Origin: a virus
Reading direction: 5' to 3' (one strand)
DNA length: 31,436 nucleotides
Virus record (IMG/VR): IMGVR_UViG_3300047678_000840
Location: 1-31,436 of that record
The notes under the pieces: generated by a model
Seen by the model: only the letters and a program-made list of their open reading frames with translations
Databases searched by the model: none
Told to the model about the DNA's origin: nothing
Part shown: positions 5,902-30,975 of the stretch, piece by piece
Layout of the letters: each line of letters begins with the position of its first letter
Position numbering within the stretch: position 1 is the stretch's first letter
Made by a program: the position numbers and the translations under genes

Positions 5902-5917
5902 AAACTGTTTTAAGACT
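5902..5917 (-). promoter_or_regulatory. Conserved late-promoter-like element upstream of the protease operon
   Basis: Plus-strand AAACTGTTTTAAGACT (minus strand AGTCTTAAAACAGTTT) starts exactly 39 bp upstream of the protease ATG. It matches the element before the lysozyme gene at 15 of 16 bases with the same 39-bp spacing, and in both places CACTTTG on the plus strand (5869-5875 here) starts 6 bp before the ATG. The core AAAC-N-GTTT is a dyad, suggesting an activator site or promoter used for late genes. Confidence 0.55.
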
Positions 5918-5941
5918 TGCGCCGGGCCGGGCGCAGTGCGG

Positions 5942-6466: not shown

Positions 6467-6469
6467 CGC

Positions 6470-7687
6470 TCAGTTTCCTTTGCGGGCGTTCGACAGTTTG
6501 CGCAGGCGTTCGATTTCAATATTGCCAATCGCGTCACCGGCCGCCACCCGCCGAAACCGCACCAGGTCCAGCGCCGCTCCTTTGGCCTGCACATGCAATA
6601 CCGAAACCCAGCCGTCACGTTCCAGGAATATCACCACGTTGTCGGCGCCGTCCGTGAACTGCGCGCCCGCGTCCAGGGTTTGCTGCACCCAGTCCAGGCT
6701 GGCCAGCGAACCCGGCGCAGCCTGGGCCTGCGCCGTCTTGCCCTGCAGCACCAGCGTGCGGCTGGCGACACCGGGCAGCAGGCGCCGGGCCGCCTGCACC
6801 ACGGCCACCGGCTGCGCTTCGTCAGGCAGCGGCGCGCGCATGAAGCGGCTGAAGTTCGGTGTCTGTATCTGCTGCGCCACCTGCGCGGCGGCCAGCTCGG
6901 GCGCAGCGCGGTCCAGCGCCTGGCGCTGCAGACCGCTGGTGTGCGCCAGGTAACTCTTGCCCGGGTTGTAGCCAAAGCCCGGGTCCACACCCACCGGCGT
7001 GGTGGATGTCTCGCCGGTGCGCGGGTCACGGTAGGGAACCCTGGCCACCGGCGGCGCTTCGCGCTGCACGGGCTCACCGTCGGCCACCATGCGGTCCAGC
7101 GCGCGCTGGCTGATGGAATAGGCGCGGCAGCGGCAGCGCCAGCCGTTGGGCGGGTAGTGCTCGGCCCAGAAAGCATCGTCCACCGGCAGCACCAGGCCGT
7201 CCCACGGGCGGTGGCTGGTGCGAACCCGTTCGTCGCGCATGGTGCGGTAGGTGATGAAGGGCTTGGTCTTCTTCGTGCGCTCGATGTCCGCCCAGCGGCC
7301 GGCCGCGTAGCTCTGGCGCAGATTGGTGTCATAGATCAGCTGCAGGCGCGCGGCGTCGAAGCGCGTCGTGCGTATTTCGCCACTGCTGGGGTCGGTGATC
7401 TCGATGTCGCCCCACCAGCCCTTCTTCACCAGCTCGGGCCGCACGGCCTTGGCAAAGTCGGCCAGGCTGCTGCCGCTGGCCAGGGCCTTGTCGATCTCGC
7501 CCTTGAACAACTGCAGCACGTCGGCCTGGGCCACGCCGGCCACCATGAACTTGCCGGCGTGTTCCGCTTCCCACAGGTCGTGCCAGTTGAAGGTGGGCTG
7601 CAGCAGGCCGCGCTGCGCGAAGGCGTTCATGGCGTCAGCCGGCTGGCTGGCGCCGATGGTGAAGCCGGGCGGCACCGCCTGCGGCAT
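6470..7687 (-). CDS. Mu gpF-like minor head / head morphogenesis protein
   Basis: A 405-aa minor head protein with the SPP1 gp7/Mu gpF domain. The conserved core is at residues 110-215: QLIYDTNLRQSYAAGRWADI, then YRTMRDERVRTSHRPWDGLV and the cysteine-containing HYPPNGWRCRCRAYSIS. The C-terminal third resembles the barrel-like extension often appended in Mu-like phages. The start is ATG 7687, one base after the portal TGA; the longer open frame to 7846 is rejected because its extra residues are Arg/Pro-rich shadow of the portal gene. The protein joins the portal and is thought to enter the prohead with it. Confidence 0.88.
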   Translation of the reverse strand: MPQAVPPGFTIGASQPADAMNAFAQRGLLQPTFNWHDLWEAEHAGKFMVAGVAQADVLQLFKGEIDKALASGSSLADFAKAVRPELVKKGWWGDIEITDPSSGEIRTTRFDAARLQLIYDTNLRQSYAAGRWADIERTKKTKPFITYRTMRDERVRTSHRPWDGLVLPVDDAFWAEHYPPNGWRCRCRAYSISQRALDRMVADGEPVQREAPPVARVPYRDPRTGETSTTPVGVDPGFGYNPGKSYLAHTSGLQRQALDRAAPELAAAQVAQQIQTPNFSRFMRAPLPDEAQPVAVVQAARRLLPGVASRTLVLQGKTAQAQAAPGSLASLDWVQQTLDAGAQFTDGADNVVIFLERDGWVSVLHVQAKGAALDLVRFRRVAAGDAIGNIEIERLRKLSNARKGN

Positions 7688-7688
7688 G

Positions 7689-9407
7689 TCAGGCGTCCTG
7701 GCCGGTGAGGTCCAGGTCGGCCTCGCCCGCCAGGCGGGCGCCGAAGCCGGCGCGGGCCAGGTCTTCGGCCAGCGGGCCGGCGTCCATACGCGCAACCAGT
7801 TGCGGCAGCCGCGCCGCGAAGGCCTGCAGGCTTTCACCGGCTGCAACGGCCTTGTCCAATTCGGCCAGCAGCGGGCCCACCAGCGGCGTCAGCAGCGGCT
7901 GCCACTGCGCCACCTGTTCAGCCACCAGGGCGTCGATGGCGTCGGGTTCAGGCTGCACGGCAGGCGCCGCGGCGGCGCGCGCCTGTGCAGCCAGCGCTGC
8001 GGCGCGCTGGTTGAACGCTGCCACGAAGGCCTGCGCCGCATCGGCAGCGCCAGCAGCACCGCCAGCACCAGCCGCACCGACTGGCGGCGGCGCGGGCGCG
8101 GCGGGCGCCGACAGCACCGCTTCCCCAGCCTGCGGCGCCGGTATGCGCAACTTGTCTTGCGCCCAGCTCACGCCGATGGGCAGGCCTATGCCCACCAGCT
8201 TGGGCAGCGCGTCGGCGTAGGCCGTCAGGTCTTCGGCGTCGCCGGTGTCCAGCACCAGGCGCGGCAGGCGGCGCAAGTCGGCACCAGCGATGTTCAGCGC
8301 CACCAGCGGCTGTATCAGCTGGCGGCTCAGTGTGGCTTCGATCAGGCGGGCATCGGCGTCGCGGATGTCCATCCGCACCTTTTCATGCACGCGGCCCAGC
8401 GCCTGCGAACCGCGCTGGCCCTGCTCGGCCGTCAGCGTCTGGCCCAGGATGGCCTTGCTCTCGGCCGCGTCCATGCGGTCCCACATCGCCGCGAAGGGGC
8501 CGTCGGTGCCGTCGGCCGCGGCCAGGAAGTCGATGACCATGCCTTGCGGAATGATGCCGGCGGCGTTGTGGCCGATGTCGGTAACGGCGCGCAGCAGCGT
8601 GCGCTTCTCGTCCGGGCTGGCGCCGGCCGGGTACTTGCCGATGCGCGTGGGCAGGCCGTAGATTTCCAGGAACTCGGCCAGGTCGCGCACGCTGTAGTTC
8701 TTGAACAGGTAGGGCCAGGCCAGCACGCGCGCCAGGCTCATGCGGCTGACGTAGCCGCTGCGCGCCGGGTGCAGGTGCATCAGCCAGGCGTAGGGCAGCA
8801 ATTCCACGCCCATCACCGACGGCAGGTAGTCGCTGGCCGGCGTGCTTTCGGTCTGGCTGCGCAGCAGCAGGCGGCGGCGGTCGGCGCTGGGCGTGAACCA
8901 GCGCTGGGGCTGTTGCGTCAGCGTGGGCAGTTGCACCTTCGCGCCGCTGCCGTCGGGCTGCAGGGCCCACACCATTTCAATGGGGGCAAAGCCTTTCAGC
9001 AGCGCGTCGGTCATGGTGCTGATGACCAGCTCCAGCCCGCCCTGCATGCCGTCGGCGAAGCACTGGATGGCGCCCAGCCAGTAGGCCACGCGTTCGGTCA
9101 TCGCCTTTTCAGCGGCGCTGGGGTTGGGTGGCGGCTCAACCGACCAGGTCTGGCTGGTGATGGCGCCGCGCCGCTTGCTCAGCTCGGCGTACAGGTGCGC
9201 GTCGCGTTCGCACATGTCGTCGGCCAGTTCCAGCTGCGCCACCAGGTTGCCCTGCTCGGCCTGCACCAGGATGCTGTGCAGCCGCTGCGGCGTCAGCCCG
9301 CGCGCCGGGTGGTTGTCGAATTCGCGGTGCAGGTAGACCACGCGGGCGCTTTGCGGTTCGGCCAGCGCCGACACGTCGATGGGTTGGCCGTTGACGTCAA
9401 GGATCAT
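7689..9407 (-). CDS. Portal protein, Mu gp29 family (DUF935)
   Basis: The 572-aa portal forms the dodecameric DNA channel at one head vertex. DUF935 blocks seen include LTPQRLHSILVQAEQGNLVAQ (N-terminal), ELSKRRGAITSQTW, GFAPIEMVW, SGYVSRMSLARVLAWPYLFKN, FLEIYGLPTRIGKYP, and the LGQTLTAEQGQRGSQALG segment. A Pro/Ala-rich linker near residues 435-470 leads into an Ala-rich helical tail, longer than the Mu protein. Start ATG 9407 (MILDVNG) has GAAGG 7 bases upstream and is preferred to the open extension to 9521, whose residues look non-coding. It lies between terminase and gpF as in Mu. Confidence 0.93.
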   Translation of the reverse strand: MILDVNGQPIDVSALAEPQSARVVYLHREFDNHPARGLTPQRLHSILVQAEQGNLVAQLELADDMCERDAHLYAELSKRRGAITSQTWSVEPPPNPSAAEKAMTERVAYWLGAIQCFADGMQGGLELVISTMTDALLKGFAPIEMVWALQPDGSGAKVQLPTLTQQPQRWFTPSADRRRLLLRSQTESTPASDYLPSVMGVELLPYAWLMHLHPARSGYVSRMSLARVLAWPYLFKNYSVRDLAEFLEIYGLPTRIGKYPAGASPDEKRTLLRAVTDIGHNAAGIIPQGMVIDFLAAADGTDGPFAAMWDRMDAAESKAILGQTLTAEQGQRGSQALGRVHEKVRMDIRDADARLIEATLSRQLIQPLVALNIAGADLRRLPRLVLDTGDAEDLTAYADALPKLVGIGLPIGVSWAQDKLRIPAPQAGEAVLSAPAAPAPPPVGAAGAGGAAGAADAAQAFVAAFNQRAAALAAQARAAAAPAVQPEPDAIDALVAEQVAQWQPLLTPLVGPLLAELDKAVAAGESLQAFAARLPQLVARMDAGPLAEDLARAGFGARLAGEADLDLTGQDA

Positions 9408-9579
9408 GGTCGGGCCTTCGAAAGTGGGTGGCCGGCCGATGTGGCCGGGGTCAGCGTTTGGGGCGTTTTTTCGGGTGGGGGTGCGGCATGGATAGCGGCG
9501 CGCGCCTTTCCAGGCCCGCAAGGCCGTTCATGAACGTTCAAAAAGGCAAACGCCGGGCACAGGCTGGGTGCGCAAAGCA

Positions 9580-11259
9580 TCAGAAACCCCCATCGCCTTC
9601 GTATTCACCCATGCGCAGGTCGTCGTCGGCGTCACTGGCGCGCATCTGAAAGCCGCGCCCTTGCGGCGCTTCCTGCCGGTGGCTGCGGCCCGGCGCGGGC
9701 GTGAAGTCGATCTCGCCGGCTTCGCGGTGGAAGGCGTACTCGGCCATGAACAGGCTGATGGCGAAGTCGCCATGCCGCCGGCCGTGCTTGCCGGTTCCGC
9801 CCTCAGCCGCTTCGGCGCGCGCTGCGGCGCTGGCGGTGTTGGTCTTGGGCAGCATGGGCACGCCGCTGACCAGTGCGATGGCGCGCAAGTCGGTCTGCAG
9901 GTGTTCGTCGCGCGGGATGTCGGTCAGCGTGCCGTCTTGCAGGCCGGCCTTCAGCTTGGGCATGTGCGCCAGGTAGAAGGCCACGCTCAGCTTCACCTGT
10001 TCGATCATCTCCACGCCGTAGCGCTGCGCGGCCTTCTCAGCCAGGCTGGCGCCGTTGCCGGTGGCATCCATCGCGCCGCCCCGGAAGCGCCTGGACTTCA
10101 GCGCATCGACGATGGCGAACAAGATCTGTTCCTGGCAGCTGAAAGGGCAGTTGCCCAGCTCCACCACCAGCTTCACCCGGTGCACCAGGTCCACGTCTTC
10201 TTCCAGCACGGTGATGACGCTCAGGTCCAGGCTGCGCGCGAAGTCTTGCCCGAACACGTGGCGGCGCAGCGGGTTCAGTGCGGCCAGCATGGGCGCCAGG
10301 TGCTCGGCAATCCAGCCCTTGATGGCATAGGTGCGAACGTCTTCGCCCAGGTAGGCGAAGGCATCGTCCCACCGGCCACGCACCAGGTGCGGTCCCACAG
10401 GCGCGGGCACGGCTGTCATGCGCTGGCCGATCAGCGCCAGGCTCAAGTACTTGCCGGCGCTGCTGCTGGGCACCACGTCCAGTTCTTCCGGCGCGTCTTC
10501 GCCGTAGAAGCGGTAGGCGGCGGCCACCCAGGCGTCTTCGTCGGGCTGCGACCAGGTCTTGCCCTTGCGCAGGCACACGCGCTGGTACAGGCCGGCGGCC
10601 ACGGCGTCACCGAAGGCCACGCGGTGCACGCTGGCCACACGCGGGCCGCCGCGCTTGCCGGCCCGCACTTCATCCACCAATTGCGCGAAGGCGTTCTCCA
10701 CGCCGTCGTGCGTGGACCAGATGCGGACCTTGTCACCCCACAGCAGCATGGCCATTGCGGCCTTCAGCAGGCCGCCCAGCTCGGGCGCGAAGGCGGCTTC
10801 GTCGATGCCCACCACGCCCTGCTTGCCGCGCAGGTTGGTGGGCCGGCTGCTCAGCGCCACGATGCGCCGGCCGGTGTGCGGGTAGCTGATCTCGTAAGTC
10901 TTGATGAAGCGGCGGTTGCTGTCGGCCACGTCAGCGCCGTCGTCGTACAGGCCTTCGCCCATTTCGCCGGCCGCATAGTTGAAGGCGCGCGTCCACATCG
11001 CCGCGGCCTCGACGAATTCGCGGGCCATGTCTTGCGTGGCGCTGATGTAGAAGTAGTTGGTGCCGCCCTCGCTGGCCGCGATCAGCACCGCGTCTGCAGC
11101 CTCGGCCCAGGTCAGGCCCACGCGGCGGCCTTTCTCGCAGACCTTCAGCTGGGCTTCGTCGGCGATCCAGGCTTGCTGGTAGGCCAGCATCACCGGCGGC
11201 GGTTCGTCGGCCAGCGCCGAGGTGTTCAGCGCGTTCAGCGGGTTGGCTGCGGTGCTCAC
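9580..11259 (-). CDS. Terminase large subunit, Mu gp28 family
   Basis: A 559-aa DNA packaging motor: an ATPase domain followed by a nuclease domain. The deviant Walker A typical of Mu gp28 is CEKGRRVGLTWAEA (about residues 41-54); Walker B is VVGIDEAAF (149-157), followed by a WSTHDG coupling-motif region near 189. The nuclease half contains FGQDFARSLDLSVI, where acidic residues are expected. The start is taken as GTG 11259, which overlaps the TGA of the upstream integrase gene (GTGA); an open frame to 11310 exists but its extra residues are atypical. The C-terminus ends in an acidic tail. In Mu this gene follows the small subunit directly; here three extra genes intervene. Confidence 0.95.
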   Translation of the reverse strand: MSTAANPLNALNTSALADEPPPVMLAYQQAWIADEAQLKVCEKGRRVGLTWAEAADAVLIAASEGGTNYFYISATQDMAREFVEAAAMWTRAFNYAAGEMGEGLYDDGADVADSNRRFIKTYEISYPHTGRRIVALSSRPTNLRGKQGVVGIDEAAFAPELGGLLKAAMAMLLWGDKVRIWSTHDGVENAFAQLVDEVRAGKRGGPRVASVHRVAFGDAVAAGLYQRVCLRKGKTWSQPDEDAWVAAAYRFYGEDAPEELDVVPSSSAGKYLSLALIGQRMTAVPAPVGPHLVRGRWDDAFAYLGEDVRTYAIKGWIAEHLAPMLAALNPLRRHVFGQDFARSLDLSVITVLEEDVDLVHRVKLVVELGNCPFSCQEQILFAIVDALKSRRFRGGAMDATGNGASLAEKAAQRYGVEMIEQVKLSVAFYLAHMPKLKAGLQDGTLTDIPRDEHLQTDLRAIALVSGVPMLPKTNTASAAARAEAAEGGTGKHGRRHGDFAISLFMAEYAFHREAGEIDFTPAPGRSHRQEAPQGRGFQMRASDADDDLRMGEYEGDGGF

Positions 11260-12371
11260 AGTGCAGCAGCCTTGGCAGGCGGGACTTCGAACAACGCCAC
11301 GCGCTTCCACTCTTCATCGCTCAGCCCACGGTCGTCGATGTAGAGGTCGGTCATCTCAGAATTCTTGTGGCCCAGCAGCACCTGCAGCGTCTTCTTGCTG
11401 TAACCCTGCGCGTGGTATGTGCGGGCGCACAGCGAACGCACTTCGTGCAGGCTGGGCCATTCGTAGGCATCGAAGGCGTCTTCACCCAGCACCACCAGGA
11501 TGTGCTCATGGAAGCGGGCGCTCAGCGAAGACACTTCGAGCCGCTTGCCGCCGGCTGAACGCAGCAGCGCGGGCCCAGGTGATCCGCACTCGCGGCAAAG
11601 CTCAATGACGTCGCCCACGCTCATGTCGATTGCTTCCATGCGCAGGCTCAGCGGTATCTCGACACGCGCGCCGATGCGCTTGCCGGCCTTCTTTTGCTGC
11701 TCGATGCGCAGGTACTGCTTGCCGTCATCACCGGTCACGATGTCTTGTAAGCACACGCGACCCAGATCGGCGCGACGTTGCCCGATCACCATAGCCAGCA
11801 GCAGCATCGGGCGAACCCAACGCTGCGGGCTGGCCTTAGACAGTTCCAGCATCTGTCGCCAGACTCCCAGCGTCAGTCGCGCGCGCATGGTGCTGTGCTT
11901 GGGCGGCTTGATGTGAAAGGCCGGGTTGTTCTCGCACCAGCCGTTGGCGATGGCCTCGGTGTAGGCCTCGCGCAGCTCGGCCAGCACGCGGCCGGCGGTG
12001 GATGTCTTCTTCGGGTCGAACCCCTTGCGCAGTGCCGTGGCCACCTGGTGCGGCTTCAGCTCACTGATAACAGAGTCGCCCCACATGCGCCGCACGTGCT
12101 TCAGGTTGGCGCCTCGGTTCTTCAGCGTCTGGTCGGTATATCCGCGTTCGCGCAATTGCTGCTCATGCAGGTCAAGCCACTCGTTCAGCGTTTTCTGAGG
12201 TACCACCGGTGCGGGCAGCGCGGGGAGTGCTGCGGATACAGGCGCGGCAGGCAGCGCCGCAAGCGCCGCCTGGGCACCAGGCATGCTGCCCTGCAACGCC
12301 TGAAGCTCGGGCACCAGGCGCAAGGCCTGGGCCAGCACTTCAAGCGTGGCCGCGAGATCGGCGGAGTTCAT
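11256..12371 (-). CDS. Lambda-integrase-type tyrosine recombinase
   Basis: A 371-aa site-specific recombinase. Residues 60-150 form a SAM-like core-binding domain (TLNEWLDLHEQQLRERGYTD); the catalytic domain spans about 165-350. Catalytic residues visible are Arg199/200 (VIGQRRADLGRV), a Lys in the QQKKAGKR turn near 226, His309 and Arg312 (SLHEVRSL), His335 (LLGHKNS) and Tyr344 (MTDLYIDD), so it looks active. Start ATG 12371 (MNSADLAATL) is chosen over 12428, which would overlap the upstream gene. It overlaps the terminase start by four bases, so it is co-expressed with late head genes, an odd place and time for an integrase. A Mu-type phage needs no such enzyme; it could resolve cointegrates or multimers, or be a captured gene. 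Confidence 0.9.
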   Translation of the reverse strand: MNSADLAATLEVLAQALRLVPELQALQGSMPGAQAALAALPAAPVSAALPALPAPVVPQKTLNEWLDLHEQQLRERGYTDQTLKNRGANLKHVRRMWGDSVISELKPHQVATALRKGFDPKKTSTAGRVLAELREAYTEAIANGWCENNPAFHIKPPKHSTMRARLTLGVWRQMLELSKASPQRWVRPMLLLAMVIGQRRADLGRVCLQDIVTGDDGKQYLRIEQQKKAGKRIGARVEIPLSLRMEAIDMSVGDVIELCRECGSPGPALLRSAGGKRLEVSSLSARFHEHILVVLGEDAFDAYEWPSLHEVRSLCARTYHAQGYSKKTLQVLLGHKNSEMTDLYIDDRGLSDEEWKRVALFEVPPAKAAAL

Positions 12372-12399
12372 GTTCGGGGCACCGGCAGGGGCTTGGGAA

Positions 12400-14928
12400 T
12401 CAGATCGGGTCGAAGAACAAGGACACATTTATTGCGGCCCCGTTCCACGCCGTGACTGCTTGCAGGTACAGGGTCGTGTCAACGGTGAACACCGATGCAG
12501 ATGCGATAGGCGCGACGGAACTTTTCGAGTTCGCCGCGACAGCCTGCGCGGACAGCACTTGCGCACCTCCGGACGTGGTGCCGATGTTCAGGCCGCCAGT
12601 AATGGTGGCACCGGCGCCCTCGATTATCGAGACCAGCCGCAACGCAGAGTTAGCAGGGACGGTCAAGGTGCTGTTCGCGTTGATGGACACCCTGATAGGC
12701 GACTGAATCTTGTTGATGACGCCGGCCGATGGCTCATTGAACGGCAGCTTCAGTGGGTCAGACACCACCGTTCCAATGAGCGTGGTGTCGATGTTGCCGA
12801 TGGTTGCGTACAGGTATTTCTTCCCGTTGAATCGGAGCACCCACGGATTTCCGATGTCCGGGCTCAAGGAGTTCAACAGGACCCCGTTGAAGGCGTTGTT
12901 CACGATTGGATTCAGTTCCCCGGACATGCCGTAGGAGTTTGCTTTCCGCCCCTCGATCTTGCTGTTGGCTGTGGGAATCCAGTCCACACCGTCCTTTGAT
13001 GTTGCTGCAAGAATAGTCAAAGGCGTGTTGCCCCCGCCAGCTACGGCCGACATGTAGAGCATGCTCAAGTACCCGTTCACATACTCCAGCCAAGCATGCC
13101 CAGTTTCCGAGCGCAGGGACATAGCAGCGCTTGAGACGTTGGTAGTCGAGCCAATTTGGTAGGTGCTGCCAGCTTTCCCCAGTTCGCCTGTCAGCAGTTT
13201 TACCAATGGCACCGCAGCAGCCACACTGGTCCAGATCAGTTGATTCATGGTGAACCTGCCGACGCCTGCAATGTCGCTGTTGAGCGTCAGCGTCGTGTTG
13301 CCGGTGATCGTGCCTGTCCATTCAAGGCTGACCATAGGCAGCTTGTTGAGCGGAAAGGCTATGACCTTGAATGGACCTTTGGGATCGTTGCAGACTGCGA
13401 TTCCGGTGAACCAGGTCGCCATGTCCGTGCTGTTCGGATATGCATCGAAAGACATGTAGTAAAGGCCGCCTGGACCCTTACACACCCCACCCGCAGCGAC
13501 GGTTCCCGGCACGAACGAGTAGCCTTGACCCGTGAGCGTAAGAGCGAGCGTTGCTTGGCCCACCAGGGTTTTCGGGTTCGTGCCGTAAGCGACCGCTATG
13601 CCATTGCCCGATGTGTAGTAGATGTACGCGAGGCCGTTGTCGTACATGCAGGTAGTCTCGCCATCGGGCACATACGGGGCCGAGGCCAGCAGGTTGTCCT
13701 GAAGAAGCGTCCAGGGGCCATTTGGGTCGGTCGCCGTTACGGCGGAAACCCCGCCAAACCCACCTTGCTTAGAGTAGAAGCCGTTTATCAGACCCGCTGA
13801 ATCAAGGTAGGAAGTGAACTCCCCAGGCGATCTTCCAGACGCAACAGTCCCCAACAAACCGCTTCCGTAAGAAAACTCACTTCCCCAGTTCGTGACTGAG
13901 AGATATGTCGATAGAGTCGGATTAGTGCCGGCCGGACCAGCCGCGTAGAGCGTTGCGGTCGCACCGCTGCCTTTATACATATACGGCCGCAGGCGGATGT
14001 ATCCGTTGGCGTCAAGGCCGCTCGGCATGACGCGGAAGAATGCTTTTGCGACGTTGTTAGTCGTGCTGGAACCGTAATGAATTAGGGCCTTAAAAAAGTT
14101 CGTCTGGTCCTGCAGATTCGACAGCAGCGAGCCTTTAAGGCAGCACCGAAGCGAACTGCCGGCTACAGAAAGAACGCTCAACCAAAAATCATCGACGTTG
14201 GTGCACACGCCCAACTCAACCTCGATCAGGTCCATGACCTTCGCGGGCCGGTAAATCTCCCAGCCGCTCTTTACTGGTGCGATGGTGTTTGCGGAAACCG
14301 TAACGGTTGCGTTGGCACCGGCATTCGGGAGCACCGTGGTCGCTGCCGGAACAAGCCCTTGCGCTGCCCCGCGCATGTTCTTGGCAATGAAAGAGGCTAC
14401 TTGGTAGAACTGGTTGACTTGGTGCGAGAAGCTGCCGCTCACAGCGTTGGCCGCGTAAAGCCGGAAGACGAGGTTGCCATTCTGGTCAAGGTCTGATTGT
14501 TTGACCGTGTTGACCGCGACGGCCCCAGCCTGGACGCCGTAAGCGTAGATGCCGCTGCCCAGGTTATCCGCTGGTACAGCGAAGCCTAGGACTGATTGCA
14601 AACCTTCAGTGCCTGAACCCCAGTCCCGCGCAACGGGTCCGCCAACGCTCCACATCGACAGCTTCAAACCGCTGCCAGATGCGGTTTGGAACATGGTCCA
14701 ATCTTCCACGGCGATCGGATCGCCGACGTTGGCCTGGACAATCAAATCGGCGTACTGGTTGTCTGTCTGCGCCACCGGGATCGGCACGGCCGACGACGAG
14801 TACGGGGGGGTCAGCGTGAAGGCATTGGTCGGTGCCGTCTGCACTTTGGCAACGACGGCGTAGGGCTTCGGATTCCCAGCCCCTGACACCGCGCCGCCCG
14901 CCCCGCCAGTGCGACCGCGCCCGCTCAC
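12400..14928 (-). CDS. Large beta-propeller-like virion or accessory protein (possible GH43/GH32-like fold)
   Basis: An 842-aa protein whose family I cannot name with certainty. The Gly-rich start (MSGRGRTGGAGGAVSGAG) and residues 20-330 look like beta-rich attachment modules. Residues 370-740 contain repeated strand-turn patterns of a bladed propeller (DPNGPWTLLQDNLL, TCMYDNGLAYIYYTSG, KGPGGLYYMSFDAYP, FTGIAVCNDPKGPFKVI, NPWVLRFNGKKYLYAT), reminiscent of GH43/GH32 enzymes and some phage receptor-binding proteins. The C-terminal 100 residues are a Ser/Ala-rich beta domain. Base composition is visibly richer in A/T than the neighbours, suggesting recent acquisition. GTG 14928 overlaps the preceding gene (GTGA). 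Likely a decoration, host-binding or glycan-active protein; catalytic residues were not identified. Confidence 0.5.
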   Translation of the reverse strand: MSGRGRTGGAGGAVSGAGNPKPYAVVAKVQTAPTNAFTLTPPYSSSAVPIPVAQTDNQYADLIVQANVGDPIAVEDWTMFQTASGSGLKLSMWSVGGPVARDWGSGTEGLQSVLGFAVPADNLGSGIYAYGVQAGAVAVNTVKQSDLDQNGNLVFRLYAANAVSGSFSHQVNQFYQVASFIAKNMRGAAQGLVPAATTVLPNAGANATVTVSANTIAPVKSGWEIYRPAKVMDLIEVELGVCTNVDDFWLSVLSVAGSSLRCCLKGSLLSNLQDQTNFFKALIHYGSSTTNNVAKAFFRVMPSGLDANGYIRLRPYMYKGSGATATLYAAGPAGTNPTLSTYLSVTNWGSEFSYGSGLLGTVASGRSPGEFTSYLDSAGLINGFYSKQGGFGGVSAVTATDPNGPWTLLQDNLLASAPYVPDGETTCMYDNGLAYIYYTSGNGIAVAYGTNPKTLVGQATLALTLTGQGYSFVPGTVAAGGVCKGPGGLYYMSFDAYPNSTDMATWFTGIAVCNDPKGPFKVIAFPLNKLPMVSLEWTGTITGNTTLTLNSDIAGVGRFTMNQLIWTSVAAAVPLVKLLTGELGKAGSTYQIGSTTNVSSAAMSLRSETGHAWLEYVNGYLSMLYMSAVAGGGNTPLTILAATSKDGVDWIPTANSKIEGRKANSYGMSGELNPIVNNAFNGVLLNSLSPDIGNPWVLRFNGKKYLYATIGNIDTTLIGTVVSDPLKLPFNEPSAGVINKIQSPIRVSINANSTLTVPANSALRLVSIIEGAGATITGGLNIGTTSGGAQVLSAQAVAANSKSSVAPIASASVFTVDTTLYLQAVTAWNGAAINVSLFFDPI

Positions 14929-22716: not shown

Positions 22717-24468
22717 ATGCTCACAGCCACCGAATTCGACCTGCTGGCCCGCGCCCGCGACGACCTGCGCGCCGCAGGGCGCGGCCAGCGCGGACCCATC
22801 ATCGACCGCGTGGCCCGCACGCTGGGCATCAGCACGCAGACGGCCTACCGCAAGCTGGGTGACGCCGGCTTCGACAGTGGCCGCAAGCGCCGCGTGGATG
22901 CCGGCGAAAGCATGCTGGCCGGCGACCACCTGCAGCTGGTGGCCGGTGTGCTGGCCGCCAGCCTGAACAAGAAGGGCCAGCGCATGCCGGTGGCCACCGC
23001 CATCGACATCCTGCGCGCCAGCGGGCAACTGCCTTTCGACGTGAGCGAAAGCACCGTCAGCCGCCAGCTGTACCAGCACCACCTACACCCCGAACAGATG
23101 GCCCTGCCCAGCGCCACGGTGCAGATGACCAGCAACCACCCCAACCATGTGTGGCAGCTGGACAGCACGACCGGCGCCTACTACTACCTGCCCGGCGGCC
23201 GGCTGCGCTGGATGCCCGAAGACCAGTTCTACAAGAACAAGGTCGAGAACATCGTGAAGGCCAGCACCGACCTGCTGACCCGCTACGCGATGGCCGACCA
23301 CACCAGCCACGCTTTCCGCTGCCGCTACTACCTGGGCGGTGAGACGGCCGAGAACCTGCTGGACTTCGCCACCTGGGCGATGTGGAAGGCCGACACCAGC
23401 CCCATGCACGGCCTGCCGCTGATGCTGATCATGGACCCGGGCGCGGCCAACAAGAGCCAGCTGATGCGCAACTTCTGCAAGGCCACGGGCATAGCCCCGG
23501 AATGGCACGCTGCAGGTGCTGCCAACGTCACGGGCAGCGTGGAGAAGGTGCACGACCTGGCGCGCATGCACTTCGAAACCCGCTTCCGCTTCAAAGACCC
23601 GCGTGAAGTGACGCTGGACAAGCTGAACGAGGAAGTGCAGAGCTGGGCCGCCGCCTACTGCAGCACCCGCGTGCACAGCCGCCACAAGCGCACGCGCTTC
23701 GGTGCCTGGATGGAGATACGCGCCGAGCAACTGCGCGTAGCCGCCAGCCTGGAAGCCCTGCGCGAAGCCGCAGTGCGTGAGCCCGAGACACGCCGCGTAG
23801 ACAACGACATGACGGTGTCTTACGGCGCCAAGACCTACGACCTGCGCCGCGTGCCGGGTGCCATTGCGGGCCTGAAGGTGACGGTGCAGGTGAACGTGTT
23901 CCGCGCGCCGGCCATCGACGTGCAGTTCATCGACCCCGACACCGGCGCCGTGACCTGGCACGTGGTGGAACCCGCGAAGACCAACGAATGGGGCTTCCGT
24001 GAAGGCAATGCAGTGTGGGGCGAAAGCATGCGCACCGCCGCCAACAGCGCGGTGGACGACAACCGCAACGCCGTCACCAAGCAGGCCTACAAGACCGGCG
24101 ACGGCCTGCCCACGCTGGAAGAGGCCGCCAAGGCCCGCAAGGCCCACGCAGCGGCCTACGCGGGCGTCATCGACCCGATGGCCGACGTGAAGGCCACGCA
24201 GGTGCCCAGTTACCTGCCGCGCCACAGCACGCCGGTGGCGTTGCCGCAGCGCCAGGTTGAAGCCCGCCGCTATGACCACTACGAGGCCGCCAAGATGATC
24301 CGCGACCGCACGGGCCCGGCCTACACGCCGCAGGTGTACGGCGACCTGGTGCAGCGCTTCCCCGAAGGCGTGAATGAGGCGCAGATCGACCAGGTGTGCG
24401 CTGAGCTGACCGCACCGCCGCCCGAGGCTGAAGACGGCCTGCGGCTGATTGGTGGGGGTGCAGCATGA
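22717..24468 (+). CDS. MuA-like DDE transposase
   Basis: A 583-aa transposase that integrates and replicates the phage by cut-and-join transposition. An N-terminal HTH (RVARTLGISTQTAYRKLGDA) and a second DNA-binding region (residues 80-120, ending ESTVSRQLYQHHL) precede the RNase-H-like core. The catalytic triad is Asp149 (HVWQLDSTTGAYYYLPGG), Asp240 (LMLIMDPGAANKSQL) and Glu276 (GSVEKVHDLARMHFETRF), an exact DD35E spacing. Residues 390-460 form the beta-barrel of MuA domain II (VSYGAKTYDLRRVPGA). ATG 22717 has GGAGG upstream. The stop overlaps the ATPase start. It appears intact. Confidence 0.95.
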   Translation: MLTATEFDLLARARDDLRAAGRGQRGPIIDRVARTLGISTQTAYRKLGDAGFDSGRKRRVDAGESMLAGDHLQLVAGVLAASLNKKGQRMPVATAIDILRASGQLPFDVSESTVSRQLYQHHLHPEQMALPSATVQMTSNHPNHVWQLDSTTGAYYYLPGGRLRWMPEDQFYKNKVENIVKASTDLLTRYAMADHTSHAFRCRYYLGGETAENLLDFATWAMWKADTSPMHGLPLMLIMDPGAANKSQLMRNFCKATGIAPEWHAAGAANVTGSVEKVHDLARMHFETRFRFKDPREVTLDKLNEEVQSWAAAYCSTRVHSRHKRTRFGAWMEIRAEQLRVAASLEALREAAVREPETRRVDNDMTVSYGAKTYDLRRVPGAIAGLKVTVQVNVFRAPAIDVQFIDPDTGAVTWHVVEPAKTNEWGFREGNAVWGESMRTAANSAVDDNRNAVTKQAYKTGDGLPTLEEAAKARKAHAAAYAGVIDPMADVKATQVPSYLPRHSTPVALPQRQVEARRYDHYEAAKMIRDRTGPAYTPQVYGDLVQRFPEGVNEAQIDQVCAELTAPPPEAEDGLRLIGGGAA

Positions 24469-25745
24469 CTTCGAACCGCCGCGACTCACTGCGCAGGGTG
24501 CAGCCCTCTTTCGACGTGAGTGACCCGCCTGAAGGCAAGCGCCTGAACCTGGGTGTGGTGGCTGCGAATCTGGGCGTGACCATCACCGAGATGGCCAACG
24601 CCTGCACCGCAGCAGGCCACCCCATCAGCCGCACCGGCATTGCCGACGTGCTGAGCAACAAGTGGCCCGTGCGCACCGCGCAGGAAGGCCTGCGCAGCGC
24701 GCTGCTGAGCCTGATGGCAGCGCGCGGCGCCAGTGACGACGACCTGGCCACCTTGTTCTGGGCCTTCGGCCCCGGCAAGGCGCCGGGCCAGAACCCCAAC
24801 CCCACCCCGGGCAGCCCAACCGCTGCACCCGCACAACCCGAGGAACCCGACATGCTGCTGGCCAAACAGACGCTGACGCCCCTGGCCAAGCGCCACTTCA
24901 AACTGTTCAGCAACCCCTTCGACGGCGAGGTGGTGAAAGACGAACACTTCTTCAGCGGCAACGACATTGCCTGGGTGCGCGAAAGCGCCTGGCAGTGCGT
25001 GCAGAACGCCAGCTTCGTGGCCATCGTGGGCGAAAGCGGTGCGGGCAAGACCACCATCCTGGCCGACCTGGAAGCGCGCCTGCTGGCAGACGCACGCGGC
25101 GTCACCCTGATCAAGCCCGGCGTGCTGGGCATGGAAGAGACCAACACGCGCGGCCAGATGCTGAAGAGCGCGGACATCCTGCACGCCGTCATCACCACGC
25201 TGCAGCCCACGGCTGCCGTGCCGCAGACTTTGCAGGCCCGCACAGTGCGCACCCACAAGCTGCTGGCCAGCAGCGCCGAGGCCGGCAATTCGCACCTGCT
25301 GGTGATTGAGGAAGCCCACGGCCTGCCAGACGCCACGCTGAAGCACCTGAAGCGCCTGCATGAACTGCGGCTGGGCCGCCGGCCGCTGCTGGGCATCTTG
25401 TTGCTGGCCCAGCCCGAGCTGAAGACGCGCCTGGCCAACGGCCTGCGCAACGGTGCGCTGCGTGAGGTTGCACAGCGCTGCGAAGTGGTGGACCTGCTGC
25501 CGCTGGACAACGACCTGAAGGCCTACATCGACTGCCGCGTGCAGGCCGCCGGCCGCCGCCTGGGCGACCTGATGGACGACGCCGCCATCGAGGCGCTGCG
25601 CTTGCGCCTGACGCGCAAGCAGGGCAGCACGGCCGTGAGCATGTGCTACCCGCTAGCCGTCAACAACATGCTGACCCGCGCGCTGAACGAAGCCGCGGCC
25701 ACAGGCGTGCCGCTGCTGACCAAAGAAGTCTTCGTCCACCTGTGA
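24465..25745 (+). CDS. MuB-like AAA ATPase, transposition target selector
   Basis: A 426-aa ATPase that, as MuB, binds target DNA and activates the transposase. Residues 30-100 form an HTH-type domain (VVAANLGVTITEMANACTAA); a Pro-rich linker follows at 103-128. The AAA core has Walker A GESGAGKTT (189-197) and Walker B HLLVIEEAHG (277-286). The region from FKLFSNPFDGEVVKDEHFFS matches the IstB/TniB/ExeA-type ATPases of phage and Tn7-like systems, making this longer than Mu MuB (312 aa). ATG 24465 overlaps the transposase stop, so the two are coupled. Confidence 0.92.
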   Translation: MTSNRRDSLRRVQPSFDVSDPPEGKRLNLGVVAANLGVTITEMANACTAAGHPISRTGIADVLSNKWPVRTAQEGLRSALLSLMAARGASDDDLATLFWAFGPGKAPGQNPNPTPGSPTAAPAQPEEPDMLLAKQTLTPLAKRHFKLFSNPFDGEVVKDEHFFSGNDIAWVRESAWQCVQNASFVAIVGESGAGKTTILADLEARLLADARGVTLIKPGVLGMEETNTRGQMLKSADILHAVITTLQPTAAVPQTLQARTVRTHKLLASSAEAGNSHLLVIEEAHGLPDATLKHLKRLHELRLGRRPLLGILLLAQPELKTRLANGLRNGALREVAQRCEVVDLLPLDNDLKAYIDCRVQAAGRRLGDLMDDAAIEALRLRLTRKQGSTAVSMCYPLAVNNMLTRALNEAAATGVPLLTKEVFVHL

Positions 25746-26829: not shown

Positions 26830-27357
26830 ATGCCGACGATGAAAGAGATTGAAAACCGCGCGCTCGCATTTTCCGAGTCGCGCACCAAGCTGGCCGAATA
26901 TGTGGCCGAACTGCAGGCGGGTATCGAAGCCCTGAAGCGCGACCATTTGCCGCGCGTGCGCCGCGCACTGCATCGCGCCGCCCAGCTGCAGGCCGAATTG
27001 ATCGACCAGGTCGGTGAATCGAAAGACCTGTTCGTCAAACCCCGCACGGTCATCTTGCATGGCATTCGACTGGGCCTGGAAAAGGGCAAGGGCGCCATCG
27101 ACTTCGAAGACGCCGAAAAGGTCTGCGAGCTGATCGAGAAGAAGCTGCCCGACCTGGCCGACACGCTGATCAAGACCGACAAGAAGCCGATCAAGACCGC
27201 GTTGAAGAACCTGAGCGTGAAGGAACTGAAGGCCATCGGCTGCACGGTCGAAGAGACCGGCGACCAGGTGGTGGTGCGAGCGGTCGACCGCGACGTGGAC
27301 AAGCTGGTGACCGCGCTGCTGAAGGGCGCCGCCGAGGAACAGGCCGAATCTTCCTGA
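26830..27357 (+). CDS. gam: Mu Gam-like host nuclease inhibitor
   Basis: A 175-aa protein of the Mu Gam family, which binds double-stranded DNA ends and shields them from RecBCD-type exonucleases. An N-terminal coiled coil (residues 5-55, EIENRALAFSESRTKLAEYV onwards) is followed by the central strand region (SKDLFVKPRTVILHGIRLG) where the Gam hallmark of an Arg-Thr-Ile/Val strand is seen, then LSVKELKAIGCTVEETGDQV. Length equals that of Mu Gam (174 aa). ATG 26830 has a GGAG site 7 bases upstream. Confidence 0.9.
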   Translation: MPTMKEIENRALAFSESRTKLAEYVAELQAGIEALKRDHLPRVRRALHRAAQLQAELIDQVGESKDLFVKPRTVILHGIRLGLEKGKGAIDFEDAEKVCELIEKKLPDLADTLIKTDKKPIKTALKNLSVKELKAIGCTVEETGDQVVVRAVDRDVDKLVTALLKGAAEEQAESS

Positions 27358-27829: not shown

Positions 27830-28020
27830 TGGAAGCCAAGAACGAAACCCTGCAGGCCTACCTGGCGCTGCTGCGGGCCAAGGTTTCCGATCTGGTCAGC
27901 GGCATTGCCAGCAGCAAGCCGGGCCTGCACGGCGCCACCTTGCACGGCAAGCTGGACGAGCTGGAGCAGACGCTGAAGCATGCGCGGGCGGCTGCGGTGA
28001 GTGCGGGGCATCGGCCATGA
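27829..28020 (+). CDS. Very small helical early protein
   Basis: A 63-aa protein predicted almost entirely helical (ETLQAYLALLRAKVSDLVSG and GKLDELEQTLKHARAAAVSA). It is coupled on both sides by overlapping start/stop codons. No function can be assigned. Confidence 0.55.
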   Translation: MEAKNETLQAYLALLRAKVSDLVSGIASSKPGLHGATLHGKLDELEQTLKHARAAAVSAGHRP

Positions 28021-28484
28021 CGGGCGTGTTCGCTGACCTGGTGCGGGTGGCCACCGCGGAACGCCCGCCGATACCGGCCCGCAGCGGCGGCATTGCACCG
28101 AACGGCGGCACCGTTACCGATGAGCTGATCCGCCTGCTGTTCACCAAGGGCCGCATGAGCACCCGCCAATTGGCCGACGCCGTGGACCTGAGCACCCGCC
28201 TGGTGTGGGGCCTGCTGAAGACGCGCCTGCAGCGCGGGCAGGTGGTCTACAGCAGCGGCTGGTGGACGGTGGCGAATGGGTACGGGGAAAGCAGCATCGA
28301 GCAGATCGAATGGCACCCGGAGAGCCGCAAGCCGGACAGCGACATCACCGTGCTTTGCTGGGGCAGCGAAGGCTTCTTTACCGGCTACTGGGACGACAGC
28401 GTTCCCGGTTGGATTGCCTGTGAGAGCGGCGGCACTGTGCTGGGTGTGACGCATTGGGCGCAGCCGGAAGGGCCGGTGGCGTGA
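28017..28484 (+). CDS. HTH plus DUF551-like early protein, last phage gene before the cassette array
   Basis: A 155-aa protein. Residues 35-80 look like an HTH (DELIRLLFTKGRMSTRQLAD, AVDLSTRLVWGLL). The C-terminal 50 residues follow the DUF551 pattern: SDITVLCWGSEGFFTGYWDD, then GTVLGVTHWAQPEGP. ATG 28017 overlaps the previous stop. Its TGA (28482-28484) ends one base before the outermost attC R box, so it marks the phage/integron junction, unless it is itself a cassette gene read in the opposite sense, which I think less likely. Confidence 0.6.
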   Translation: MTGVFADLVRVATAERPPIPARSGGIAPNGGTVTDELIRLLFTKGRMSTRQLADAVDLSTRLVWGLLKTRLQRGQVVYSSGWWTVANGYGESSIEQIEWHPESRKPDSDITVLCWGSEGFFTGYWDDSVPGWIACESGGTVLGVTHWAQPEGPVA

Positions 28485-28485
28485 G

Positions 28486-28542
28486 CTTCAACGTTGCAAT
28501 TAAGCCGCGCCGTCAGGCGTCGGCTTGAATTGCGGGTTAGGG
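28486..28542 (-). repeat. attC site of cassette 3 (outermost)
   Basis: This 57-bp site is read on the minus strand. R'' is CCCTAAC (28542-28536); the stem arm GCAATTCAAGCCGACGCC pairs with GGCGCGGCTTAATTGC around a TGAC loop, leaving two extrahelical bases that are T and G on the plus (folded bottom) strand, the canonical attC pattern. The terminal R box is GTTGAAG (28492-28486). It closely resembles the aadA1 attC. Read in minus-strand frame it encodes RPNPQFKPTPDGAA, a peptide typical of attC read-through. Confidence 0.85.
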
Positions 28543-28573
28543 CGCTTGTGAACGAAGTCAAGGAAGGGAAGCG

Positions 28574-28717
28574 ATGGACGACAACGATTTGATGTTGCAA
28601 CTGCATGCGCTGGTGGAAGCTGCTGCGCAGCTATGGCCTGGGAAAGACGACTATGAGCTGTACGAGGAGCTTCACGAGCGGCTGCGCGACGTGATGGACG
28701 AAAGGAATCCGGCATGA
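28574..28717 (+). CDS. Cassette 3 small acidic protein, first ORF
   Basis: A 47-aa acidic helical protein (MDDNDLMLQLHALVEAAAQL, then YELYEELHERLRDVMDERN). ATG 28574 follows a GGAAGGG site with a short spacer, and the stop overlaps the next ATG (ATGA). It lies within cassette 3 but points towards intI, with the phage early operon. Function unknown. Confidence 0.6.
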   Translation: MDDNDLMLQLHALVEAAAQLWPGKDDYELYEELHERLRDVMDERNPA

Positions 28718-29007
28718 GCGACCTACTGCAAAGGCTGCGCGAAGAACGCGACCTATGCGCCGCCGGGCATGCGGACGACATTGCGAATTTGCTGCATGAA
28801 GCGGTGCTTCACATTACGGCCATACAGCAGAGATGCGACGAAGGTGATCGTTGCCGCGATGCGCTACGTGATTTTGTAAACGCATACCGCGCAATGCCAG
28901 ACGGTGAACTCGGTCGCGGTTTGAACAATGGGCTGTTCCTACGCGCCGAGGAGCTTGTGCGCCCTAACGTTGGAGCTAACCGGGCGGCGCACCCAAGTAG
29001 GACGTAG
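28714..29007 (+). CDS. Cassette 3 small helical protein, second ORF
   Basis: A 97-aa helical protein: MSDLLQRLREERDLCAAGHA, then LLHEAVLHITAIQQRCDEGD and GLNNGLFLRAEELV. It is translationally coupled to the 47-aa ORF. The last 13 or so residues (PNVGANRAAHPSRT) are encoded by the R box and stem of attC of cassette 2, so the C-terminus depends on which cassette lies next to it. No family recognised; it resembles small phage or cassette proteins of unknown role. Confidence 0.6.
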   Translation: MSDLLQRLREERDLCAAGHADDIANLLHEAVLHITAIQQRCDEGDRCRDALRDFVNAYRAMPDGELGRGLNNGLFLRAEELVRPNVGANRAAHPSRT

Positions 29008-29049
29008 CCGCCCAGGCCGTTGCCGCTCCGGTTAAGCGACGTGTTAGGC
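28962..29049 (-). repeat. attC site of cassette 2
   Basis: This 88-bp site is read on the minus strand. R'' is GCCTAAC (29049-29043, perfect consensus) with a 5-base spacer to the stem arm GCTTAACCGGAGCGGC, which pairs with GCCGCCCGGTTAGC to leave two extrahelical bases, both on the same arm. R' is GTTAGGG (28968-28962). The remaining 33 bases form a terminal loop with its own small GC pairing. Two one-sided bulges plus R boxes are strong attC evidence and set polarity. Confidence 0.85.
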
Positions 29050-29068
29050 ATCAGTGGTGGAGGACGAG

Positions 29069-29269
29069 ATGAGAGTACCGAACTGGCAACCGATGACGCA
29101 GGCCGACAAGGCTGGCCGCTGGTATGCGCGAGACACTGACGGCATGGAGGCGTGGACGTGGCACGACGGCGACGAGTGGACGCGGGAGGCATGGCGCGAG
29201 ACTGAAGATCGCCAGGAATACCTGAGCGAAGAATGGTGGACGCCCGTGGAGTACCGGGCTGATGCCTAA
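29069..29269 (+). CDS. Cassette 2 small Trp-rich acidic protein
   Basis: A 66-aa protein rich in Trp, Asp and Glu (RVPNWQPMTQADKAGRWYAR, MEAWTWHDGDEWTREAWRET). ATG 29069 has GGAGG 5 bases upstream and is preferred over GTG 29054. The TAA stop lies inside the R box GCCTAAC and ends exactly at the cassette boundary. One compact ORF filling a 300-bp cassette is typical, except that it points opposite to the attC polarity. Function unknown. Confidence 0.65.
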   Translation: MRVPNWQPMTQADKAGRWYARDTDGMEAWTWHDGDEWTREAWRETEDRQEYLSEEWWTPVEYRADA

Positions 29270-29363
29270 CGTTCGAGCTGAAACGGAGACAACGGCGTGA
29301 CACTGATGACTATTGAGACGCTGCCGAGCGCCGTTGGCTCTCGGTTCGAGCGAGGGGTTCGGC
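29264..29363 (-). repeat. attC site of cassette 1 (intI-proximal)
   Basis: This 100-bp site is read on the minus strand. R'' is GCCGAAC (29363-29357) and R' is GTTAGGC (29270-29264). Arms GCTCGAACCGAGAG and its partner CTCCGTTTCAGC pair imperfectly, followed by a perfect inner CAACGGCG/CGCCGTTG stem. The extra bases are again on the 5' arm of the minus strand. It is more degenerate than the other two; the minus-strand reading TPNPSLEPRANG is a familiar attC read-through peptide. Confidence 0.7.
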
Positions 29364-29902
29364 GTCTGGGTCCGAAGCGCGCAGAAGTTGGCGCGTTCTA
29401 CTCGGTGCCGTGCGTGCGTGTGCCATTCGGCTTCTACGGTATGAAGTGGGCGCCCGTGATTGGCCCGAAACACCGAGACGTAGAGCTTGGCGTGGACTGG
29501 GAGCATTGGCATGTGGACTGGCGCTTTGTGCCTGAAGACACGTTGCGCCATGCCAGCGCCGGCCGCATTGCCAGCCCACACGGCAAGGTCGTTTCCAACG
29601 ACAACCCGAACCGATGGGGCGACCACGAGCTGACGGGCGCGTCCGAACTCAAACGCAGGATGTGCCGCCGCCAGATGCCGGACTTCCCTGCATCGCCGGG
29701 GCCGATTTGGGCCGCGATGGAGACGGCACAGCGCATCCGCTGCGACAAGCTGAAGGACGGCCACACATGCCCGCACCGTGGCATTGATCTGCGGCCGTTT
29801 GAGAAAGAAGACGGGACGGCGGTGTGCCCAGGTCACGGCTTGCGCTGGGACTTGCGCACGGGTCTTTTGCTGGCCCGCCACAAGACGCCGAACGTGTTGT
29901 AG
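29297..29902 (+). CDS. Cassette 1 Rieske-type [2Fe-2S] protein
   Basis: A 201-aa protein with a C-terminal Rieske motif: Cys158-Pro-His160 (HTCPHRGIDLRPF) and Cys177-Pro-Gly-His180 (AVCPGHGLRWDLRTG), which would bind a [2Fe-2S] cluster. Residues 45-85 contain FGFYGMKWAPVIGPKHRDVE and WEHWHVDWRFVP, a His/Trp-rich block that may contact metal or partner. Start GTG 29297 has GGAG 8 bases upstream, but it lies inside attC; GTG 29405 is an alternative. The end (TPNVL, TAG 29900-29902) passes 10 bp beyond the cassette boundary into the attI region. It could be a ferredoxin-like electron carrier or an oxygenase component; no oxygenase catalytic domain is present. Confidence 0.7.
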   Translation: MTLMTIETLPSAVGSRFERGVRRLGPKRAEVGAFYSVPCVRVPFGFYGMKWAPVIGPKHRDVELGVDWEHWHVDWRFVPEDTLRHASAGRIASPHGKVVSNDNPNRWGDHELTGASELKRRMCRRQMPDFPASPGPIWAAMETAQRIRCDKLKDGHTCPHRGIDLRPFEKEDGTAVCPGHGLRWDLRTGLLLARHKTPNVL

Positions 29903-29937
29903 ACAACCACCCCAGTCGCCTAATCCCAGACCACCAC
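29887..29937 (-). other. attI: Candidate attI region
   Basis: Reading away from intI, the R-type box GTTCGGC (29893-29887) marks the junction with cassette 1; it exactly complements the R'' of cassette 1's attC, as expected of an integrated cassette. The crossover lies 45 bp upstream of the intI ATG. A short GTTGT/ACAAC inverted pair (29896-29907) next to it could be the second IntI-binding box. The site is short compared with known attI sites, and no Pc promoter is evident. Confidence 0.55.
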
Positions 29938-30975
29938 ATGCAAGTCCTTGTCACACCTCAATTTGCAGATGCTGAAGGCAACGCGGTTGCGCGTGTTCCC
30001 AGCGAGGCCACGGGCAAGCCGAAGCTGATTCATCAACTGCGCGCAGCGATTCGAGTGCGGCACTACAGCCTGCGCACCGAAGAGGCCTATGTGCACTGGG
30101 TCAAGCATTTCATCTACTGGTCAGGCATGCGCCATCCGAAACACATGGGCGCTGCCGAGTGCGAAGACTTCTTGAGCTTCCTGGCCACGCAGCGGAAGTT
30201 GGCCCCTTCCAGCCAAAGCCAGGCGCGTAGCGCGTTGCTGTTCCTATACGGCAAGGTGCTGGATGTCGATCTGCCCTGGCTGAAGTCGCTGCCCTGCGCG
30301 AAGTCTTCGAAGCACCTCCCTGTGGTGCTGAGCGTGCCTGAAGTGCAGCGCCTGCTTGCTGCGGTATCCGGTCGCACCGGCCTGCTGATGGCGCTGCTGT
30401 ACGGCACCGGCATGCGCATCACCGAATGCCTGCAGTTGCGCGTGAAAGACCTGGACTTCGACCACCAGGCCATCGTGGTGCGCGACGGAAAGGGCGGCAA
30501 GGACCGAATCGTCACACTGCCGCAAAGCCTGGCTGACGCACTGCGCCAGCAACTGGCCCGCCGCGCTGACCTGCACCGCTTGGACCAGCAACGGGGCATG
30601 GTGGACGTGTGGCTGCCCCACGCGCTGGCCGTGAAGTACCCGCGTGCTGCGCAGTCATGGTCCTGGCAGTACGTGTTCTGCGCCGATGACTATTCAACAG
30701 ACCCCATCACCAAGGCCCGCCGCCGGCACCACCTGAGCCCGGAACACATCCAACGGGCCATGCAGCGCGCCGTGGCCGCCGCCGGTATCCACAAGCGCGC
30801 CACGCCGCACACCCTGCGCCATTCCTACGCCACGCACCTGCTGATGTCGGGCTACGACATCCGCACCGTGCAGGAAATGCTGGGCCACGCCGACGTGAGC
30901 ACCACCATGATCTACACCCACGTCCTGCGCCTGGGCGGCAAGGCCGTGCGCAGCCCGCTGGATGACCTGTCGTGA
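29938..30975 (+). CDS. intI: Integron integrase (IntI family tyrosine recombinase)
   Basis: A 345-aa recombinase that catalyses attC x attI and attC x attC exchange on folded single-stranded attC. The N-terminal core-binding domain has the IntI signature LRAAIRVRHYSLRTEEAYVH, then FLYGKVLDVDLPWL. The catalytic domain has Arg160 (YGTGMRITECLQLRVKDLDF), Lys185-type loop (DGKGGKDR), His291 and Arg294 (HTLRHSYATHLL), His317 (LGHADVS) and Tyr326 (MIYTHV). Residues 226-256 carry the extra alpha domain found only in integron integrases (ALAVKYPRAAQSWSWQYVF, STDP). ATG 29938 is chosen by alignment to IntI1. TGA overlaps the gemA GTG by four bases, placing it in the phage early operon. It appears intact. 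Confidence 0.95.
   Translation: MQVLVTPQFADAEGNAVARVPSEATGKPKLIHQLRAAIRVRHYSLRTEEAYVHWVKHFIYWSGMRHPKHMGAAECEDFLSFLATQRKLAPSSQSQARSALLFLYGKVLDVDLPWLKSLPCAKSSKHLPVVLSVPEVQRLLAAVSGRTGLLMALLYGTGMRITECLQLRVKDLDFDHQAIVVRDGKGGKDRIVTLPQSLADALRQQLARRADLHRLDQQRGMVDVWLPHALAVKYPRAAQSWSWQYVFCADDYSTDPITKARRRHHLSPEHIQRAMQRAVAAAGIHKRATPHTLRHSYATHLLMSGYDIRTVQEMLGHADVSTTMIYTHVLRLGGKAVRSPLDDLS

Follow-up and report, generated by a model that had tools for sequence, protein, structure and literature searches.

Integrons are regarded as bacterial devices, and the polarity of their attC sites, which orients captured gene cassettes for the promoter Pc, is a rule central to the accepted view of how they work; Pc itself is not essential to the definition of the integron family. 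The integrase, IntI, prefers the folded bottom strand of attC, and each cassette is thereby oriented for expression from Pc (PMC8946536). The locus described here shares with the class 1 integron (IntI1/attI1, Tn402-borne) an integrase of the IntI family, a predicted attI beside intI, attC sites with extrahelical bases and an array on the strand opposite intI, and its third attC has a core of the aadA type. It differs from the class 1 integron in an IntI of only moderate identity, in the lack of a Tn402 context, in having no Pc-like promoter that we could find, in forming part of a phage operon, and in genes that are reversed relative to attC. The sedentary chromosomal integrons of Burkholderiales, which supply its nearest chromosomal IntI and attC relatives, have the same intI-attI-array geometry, and they too differ from it in the direction of their genes.

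Integrons have been reported from phages before. Qi et al. 2023 (PMC9892861) reported four cases from named phages, three of them complete integrons and the fourth an intI on its own, in Vibrio phages Va_90-11-286_p16 and Va_PF430-3_p42, a P1 isolate and the Shewanella prophage M16-3; they also reported attC clusters without intI in phages and showed recombination of phage attCs with attI1. These resemble our locus in carrying intI, and mostly also attC, within a phage record. Unlike it, they are host-type integrons or fragments with a host-like IntI and canonical gene orientation, and that study describes none in a Mu-like early operon and no phage-specific IntI lineage. In the records of Shewanella M16-3 and Vibrio Va p16, most annotated array genes point against intI, the bacterial arrangement. 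Our literature search covered papers, preprints lying outside it; on integrons in phages it found only Qi et al. 2023, and it returned no phage-specific IntI lineage, no intI in a Mu-like early operon and no rule of reversed cassettes.

A further phage, Virus Rctr41k (KX853513), likewise has attC-like sites and, in a co-directional operon, a gene of the IntI family. Its attCs, however, are on the plus strand and the array is downstream of intI, so that intI, and not the genes, is flipped relative to the array. The record (L131) carries an xerD annotation, the IntI-family gene and the attC-like sites after it occupy 4680-9434, and the phage is missing from those tables of Qi et al. that were consulted.

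Here we describe an integron in the early operon of a Mu-like phage and argue that it very probably represents a phage-adapted lineage that captures reversed cassettes and has them expressed from the phage early operon.

Results

An integron integrase between Gam and GemA

The window, by which we mean the whole stretch of DNA analysed, comes from IMG/VR as a virus record 31,436 bases long, a single metagenomic contig that is linear, incomplete and ends at gemA. The phage is Mu-like. As in Mu-type transposable phages, A, B, Gam, GemA and Mu head genes all occur in this one genome (Table 1), the head and lysis genes including Portal_Mu (E 7e-95), Mu_F, Mu-like_Pro, Gp27 and a lysozyme. A second tyrosine recombinase, of the phage integrase family (PF00589, E 3e-11), is encoded at 11256-12428 on the minus strand, amid the head genes and adjoining the terminase. 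A DNA search of named phages found none similar to the window phage, neither DNA search nor scans produced a second contig of it, and relatives of its Mu A are scarce in 399 Burkholderiales genomes (one, at 38%).

The original prediction, an intact integron integrase lodged in the early operon of a Mu-like phage, was borne out. The open reading frame between Gam and GemA scores 435 bits (E 1.7e-130) against the NCBI integron integrase model TIGR02249, whose cut-off is 265. In an 18-row alignment of the window protein with 17 IntIs, the catalytic residues R160, K185, H291, R294, H317 and Y326 are all there and the IntI-specific insert, KYPRA..SW.W..VF..STDP, is intact. The nearest solved structure is 2a3v, a Vibrio integron integrase (E 6e-83). 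The similarity to IntI1 noted in the original prediction measures 56-59% identity, and class 1 identity, which requires near identity to IntI1, is rejected on that figure. XerC, XerD or an ordinary phage integrase is rejected as well: the XerC and XerD models give 167 and 165 bits (cut-offs 335 and 330), about half the cut-offs or less, and phylogeny, the check proposed with the prediction, places the protein inside IntI and splits it from Xer with support of 100/100.

Of the two neighbours named in the prediction, gemA on the right is real and starts inside the intI stop codon, the two genes overlapping by four bases (TCGTGAGC). The DUF551-like gene on the left is not: the actual neighbour encodes a Rieske-like protein of 201 aa, and the small gene preceding it had no Pfam match.

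Table 1. Features of the Mu-like phage window and its integron
Feature	Position	Strand	Basis and remarks
Mu A-like transposase	22717..24468	+	63-70% identity to viral relatives; weak rve match
Mu B-like ATPase	24465..25745	+	AAA_22 E 4e-16; synteny
Gam-like protein, left anchor of variable Gam-GemA region	26830..27357	+	PF07352 E 4e-5; 40-64% identity in relatives L012-L018
Phage early gene at far end of array	28017..28484	+	stops 1 base short of cassette 3 attC; homologue in Mu-like phage L018
attC of cassette 3, aadA-like core	28486..28542	-	R1 38.7 bits, E 2.8e-8
Gene cassette 3	28492..28967	-	R'' GCCCTAAC matches cassette start TTAGGGC
Cassette 3 gene a, 47 aa, reversed	28574..28717	+	coding score 26.5 vs -17.9
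Cassette 3 gene b, 97 aa, reversed	28714..29007	+	ORF list; overlaps gene a (ATGA)
attC of cassette 2	28962..29049	-	R1 47.0 bits, E 1.8e-10
Gene cassette 2	28968..29269	-	R'' GCCTAAC matches cassette start TTAGGC
Cassette 2 gene, 66 aa, reversed vs own attC	29069..29269	+	coding score 34.8; other strand without ORF
attC of cassette 1	29264..29363	-	R1 40.6 bits, E 8.8e-9
Gene cassette 1 (attC minus strand, gene plus strand)	29270..29892	-	R'' GCCGAAC equals cassette start at attI
Cassette 1 gene, Rieske-like, phrog_10072, reversed vs own attC	29306..29902	+	phrog_10072 E 1.7e-15; alternative GTG start 29297
Predicted attI	29887..29937	-	junction GCCGAAC 29887-29893 plus conserved block to intI start; R'' match, block conservation
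intI, intact integron integrase	29938..30975	+	345 aa, no frameshift; TIGR02249, catalytic residues and IntI insert, IntI clade in trees
gemA, start within intI stop codon	30972..31436	+	PF06252 E 2.3e-30

Could an integron fragment have been joined to a phage contig during assembly? The record is a single metagenomic contig and cassette arrays are hard to assemble, but the evidence leaves such a chimera hardly any probability. The four-base coupling of intI to gemA recurs in a divergent phage, L246; two contigs, L231 and L311, carry the same intI-mor-terL order; many sister contigs link intI with other phage genes; and the GC content and coding score of the window intI are near those of the phage genes. 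The misassembly that the prediction had named as its own refutation was looked for on both flanks, and the phage genes there belong to one Mu-like family with the same Gam and GemA order.

L246 and L231 also answer the proposed search for Mu-like phages with intI at the same place: there are two, and the intI that each carries in this early region is divergent. L246 has Mu A, Mu B, Gam, intI, GemA and a Mor-like gene; L231 has GemA, intI, Mor and terminase, with intI overlapping mor. Closer relatives of the phage itself lack the integron. In L012-L016, whose transposases are 63-70% identical to that of the window, and in L017 and L018, which were also compared, Gam and GemA stand in the same order as in the window, and the interval between them holds other small accessory genes and neither intI nor attC. 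The integron of the window was therefore acquired, in a variable part of the early operon. The window gene 28017-28484 has its L018 homologue downstream of gemA (10989-11423), so this gene moves around gemA.

Three attC sites and a predicted attI

An array of attC sites and an attI beside intI were absent from the original prediction. We searched the window, with filters off, using a covariance model (R1) trained on 21 attCs, which came from Burkholderiales chromosomes and class 1 integrons, and on none of the window. Three minus-strand sites stood out (Table 1); on the opposite strand they score 9.4 bits or less or go unlisted, and the next best site in the 31 kb reaches 10.3 bits. All three have the R''-L''-L'-R' arrangement and extrahelical base of attC under this independent model, and the site of cassette 3, with an extrahelical base in its fold, has a bottom-strand z of -4.5. 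An Rfam search gave no attC match in the window. By eye the sites had been read on the plus strand, since plus-strand genes precede them; the extrahelical base and the covariance model overturned that reading.

The ends of all three cassettes match their own R'' boxes. On the minus strand the predicted attI junction reads G/TTCGGC, a near match to the consensus G/TTRRRY, and its six bases equal the R'' of the first cassette's attC. The same holds in 22 of 26 related loci tested; reasoning from R'' in this way puts their junctions no more than about 120 bases from intI. In those loci the attI side has the conserved sequence AAC/TTAAATTC.ACGACAC...TGTCG; the window has the right part of this block, which can be aligned with 14 other phages. 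By its sequence, then, the window holds a complete integron, with intI, a predicted attI and three attC-bounded cassettes, and these parts lend strong support to the suggestion that the phage could capture cassettes.

The gene of cassette 1 scores 52.5 for coding against -8.8 on the other strand. Its Rieske match (E 0.0012) falls short of the cut-off, weak Rieske relatives of the protein occur on plasmids, and neither an IMG/VR pattern search nor tblastn against named phages found a relative.

Reversed cassette genes across phages

Every cassette gene of the window lies on the strand opposite to the one that Pc-driven expression along attC would read, a real departure from the usual integron. 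How general is this? We scored gene orientation with a dicodon gene finder trained on 1,036 long ORFs. In the window and phages L180, L181 and L182, the better ORF ran opposite to the attC strand, and along intI and the phage operon, in 24 of 24 cassettes. Over all viral loci, the attC-attC cassettes divided into 80 against attC, 1 along it, 2 ambiguous and 1 without an ORF; the same handling of 20 Burkholderiales loci gave 73 along, 3 against, 5 ambiguous and 9 without an ORF, and class 1 cassettes ran along attC in 4 of 4. The gene thus follows attC in 73 of 76 scored chromosomal cassettes and in 1 of 81 phage cassettes (reversed 80:1 in viruses vs 3:73 in chromosomes, Fisher p 6e-40, cassettes not being fully independent). 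Counted per locus, nearly all viral loci are reversed, the exceptions being L215 and L220, viral contigs with some cassettes in canonical orientation. The reversal thus extends to dozens of other phages whose intI is related. In L223 a plus-strand attC array lies downstream of intI and the genes run along attC, again with the operon; Rctr41k is laid out alike.

Homology backs the reversed strand in several phages: N6_N4 methylases (L182, L221), a C5 methylase (L185), PAPS reductase-like proteins (L181, L213), DHH proteins (L195, L199) and an SspD-like protein (L181) are all encoded there. A Mom-family gene adjoining attC sites (L193, 1231-1875) is likewise a reversed cassette gene, and a reversed radical SAM cassette gene in L242 (E 2e-4) scores under the cut-off. 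The identified cargo of the sister phages is mostly DNA modification (methyltransferases, Mom, SspD-like). The start codon of reversed cassette genes lies a median of 18 bases past attC, so that attC becomes a 5' element. Cassettes, whole or partial, are common to phages with different IntIs, as in L195 and L199 (85.7% over 916/917 bases) and among L181, L194 and L322, which supports their mobility. Such sharing of reversed cassettes, with cargo that is mostly DNA modification, suggests a common phage pool of accessory and anti-restriction genes.

A phage lineage of IntI

An IMG/VR scan with the IntI alignment returned 80 loci at 41-63% identity. In a large quick tree (145 rows, Xer outgroup), the window IntI falls inside IntI in a 37-row set made up only of itself and 36 IMG/VR viral IntIs (SH-aLRT 99). 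In a smaller careful tree, a branch with support of 99/97 sets the main viral set apart from every chromosomal and class 1 IntI sampled. Rooted on the distant Xer, this tree does not show the set as one clade, although a single clade is not rejected by the AU test (p 0.29); the claim of a strict single clade, seen in the quick tree and not in the careful one, is therefore stated with care. More viral IntIs are scattered elsewhere in the tree, so acquisition appears to be repeated, and phages probably gained intI more than once. One of these phages, L194, has an IntI that nests among chromosomal IntIs (96/89) and cassettes that are reversed nonetheless.

These data bear on another possible origin, a recent transfer into the phage of an integron from a host chromosome or of class 1, which would then be mere transient cargo like those in the four phages of Qi et al. 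2023. That paper documents integrons in P1 and close to prophage ends, and in a collection of named phages (50,697 records) the best matches to the window IntI lineage are of IntI1 type (55-59%), the nearest being P1 and host-type integrons. The window IntI, however, shares no more than 57-59% identity with any chromosomal or class 1 IntI in the sample and groups with viral IntIs, and its reversed cassettes are a phage-wide feature unlike host-type arrays, the array genes of M16-3 and Va p16 running canonically. We regard a recent host origin as improbable. The window integron is a member of a previously undescribed phage integron family with reversed cassettes. Its odd placement, the point of the original prediction, is real, but as a single case it was drawn too narrowly: the window is one member of a broad phage-integron lineage.

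The neighbours of intI differ among sister phages. It is joined to the terminase, with an overlap, in L242 and L324; it stands next to portal (L182), baseplate (L180), tail fibre (L198, L206), phage integrase (L203) and virion protein (L193) genes elsewhere. In L242 (2950) and L324 (1942) the intI stop lies over the start of the large terminase, a coupling like that with gemA in the window. The phrog_2 terminase by itself matches 8 of 50 sister records, so several hallmark genes were used to establish their phage nature. In L226 (3132-13639), an IntI-family gene lies between two portal-like genes and a MuF-containing protein of 1343 aa, and no attC was found.

Has IntI become a phage recombinase with another job, such as resolution or integration into host attC, the attC-like hairpins being relics or regulatory? 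The fusion of intI into phage operons, with overlaps of gemA, mor and terL, is in keeping with this, as are the few attC sites of L231 and L270, which have a related intI. Yet among phages of the main clade the attC arrays are still well formed, the cassette ends match and attI is conserved; cassettes are common to several phages; and the window phage has its own transposase, as many sister phages have their own integrase. A change of job thus seems improbable too, by a shade more than a recent host origin.

A Burkholderiales genome provides a further locus (L375; G121:C13, 1-6219). Its IntI is 89% identical to that of L186 over 208 residues. The locus also has eight minus-strand attC matches in a reversed array, a phage integrase and a small AlpA-like gene, and it borders on ordinary chromosomal genes. 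This is probably a prophage end and a lead to the host.

Discussion

We return to the reading of the window as a phage-adapted integron. Why would a phage reverse its cassettes? No sigma-70-like promoter, and no Pc-like one, was found on either strand of window positions 28400-30300, and no LexA-type box between 27 and 31.4 kb, which fits expression of intI and the cassettes from a repressor-controlled phage early promoter. IntI would then be made along with the other early phage proteins and would recombine the folded bottom strand of attC with the attI just before intI; from that position of attI, new cassettes would be expected to enter the array at its intI-proximal end. The polarity of attC would set the direction of insertion, and a gene in the usual orientation would face against phage transcription. 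With the phage operon running the opposite way, only a reversed ORF would be expressed, and for this reason the phage may keep cassettes in which attC lies upstream of the start codon. Such cassettes would be read from the phage early promoter as part of an operon that continues into intI and gemA, and would circulate between phages as a shared pool of accessory and anti-restriction genes, with a possible benefit in counter-defence.

More broadly, we think it likely that phages have integrons as a system of their own, with several intI lineages specific to phages, an attI of phage type and reversed cassettes that form a pool apart. Such cassettes would move among phages that are not related, both Mu-like and of several other tailed kinds, and would bring mainly genes for DNA modification and other counter-defence into whatever phage operon harbours the array.

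The arrays of the phage lineage keep the insertion geometry of integrons, but their cassette genes face the other way, where the phage operon would read them. If this is true, phages would be hosts of integrons and not carriers only, and would have a mechanism for swapping anti-restriction genes among themselves. It raises the question of where reversed cassettes are made, and cassette formation would become testable in a small, fast-replicating system.
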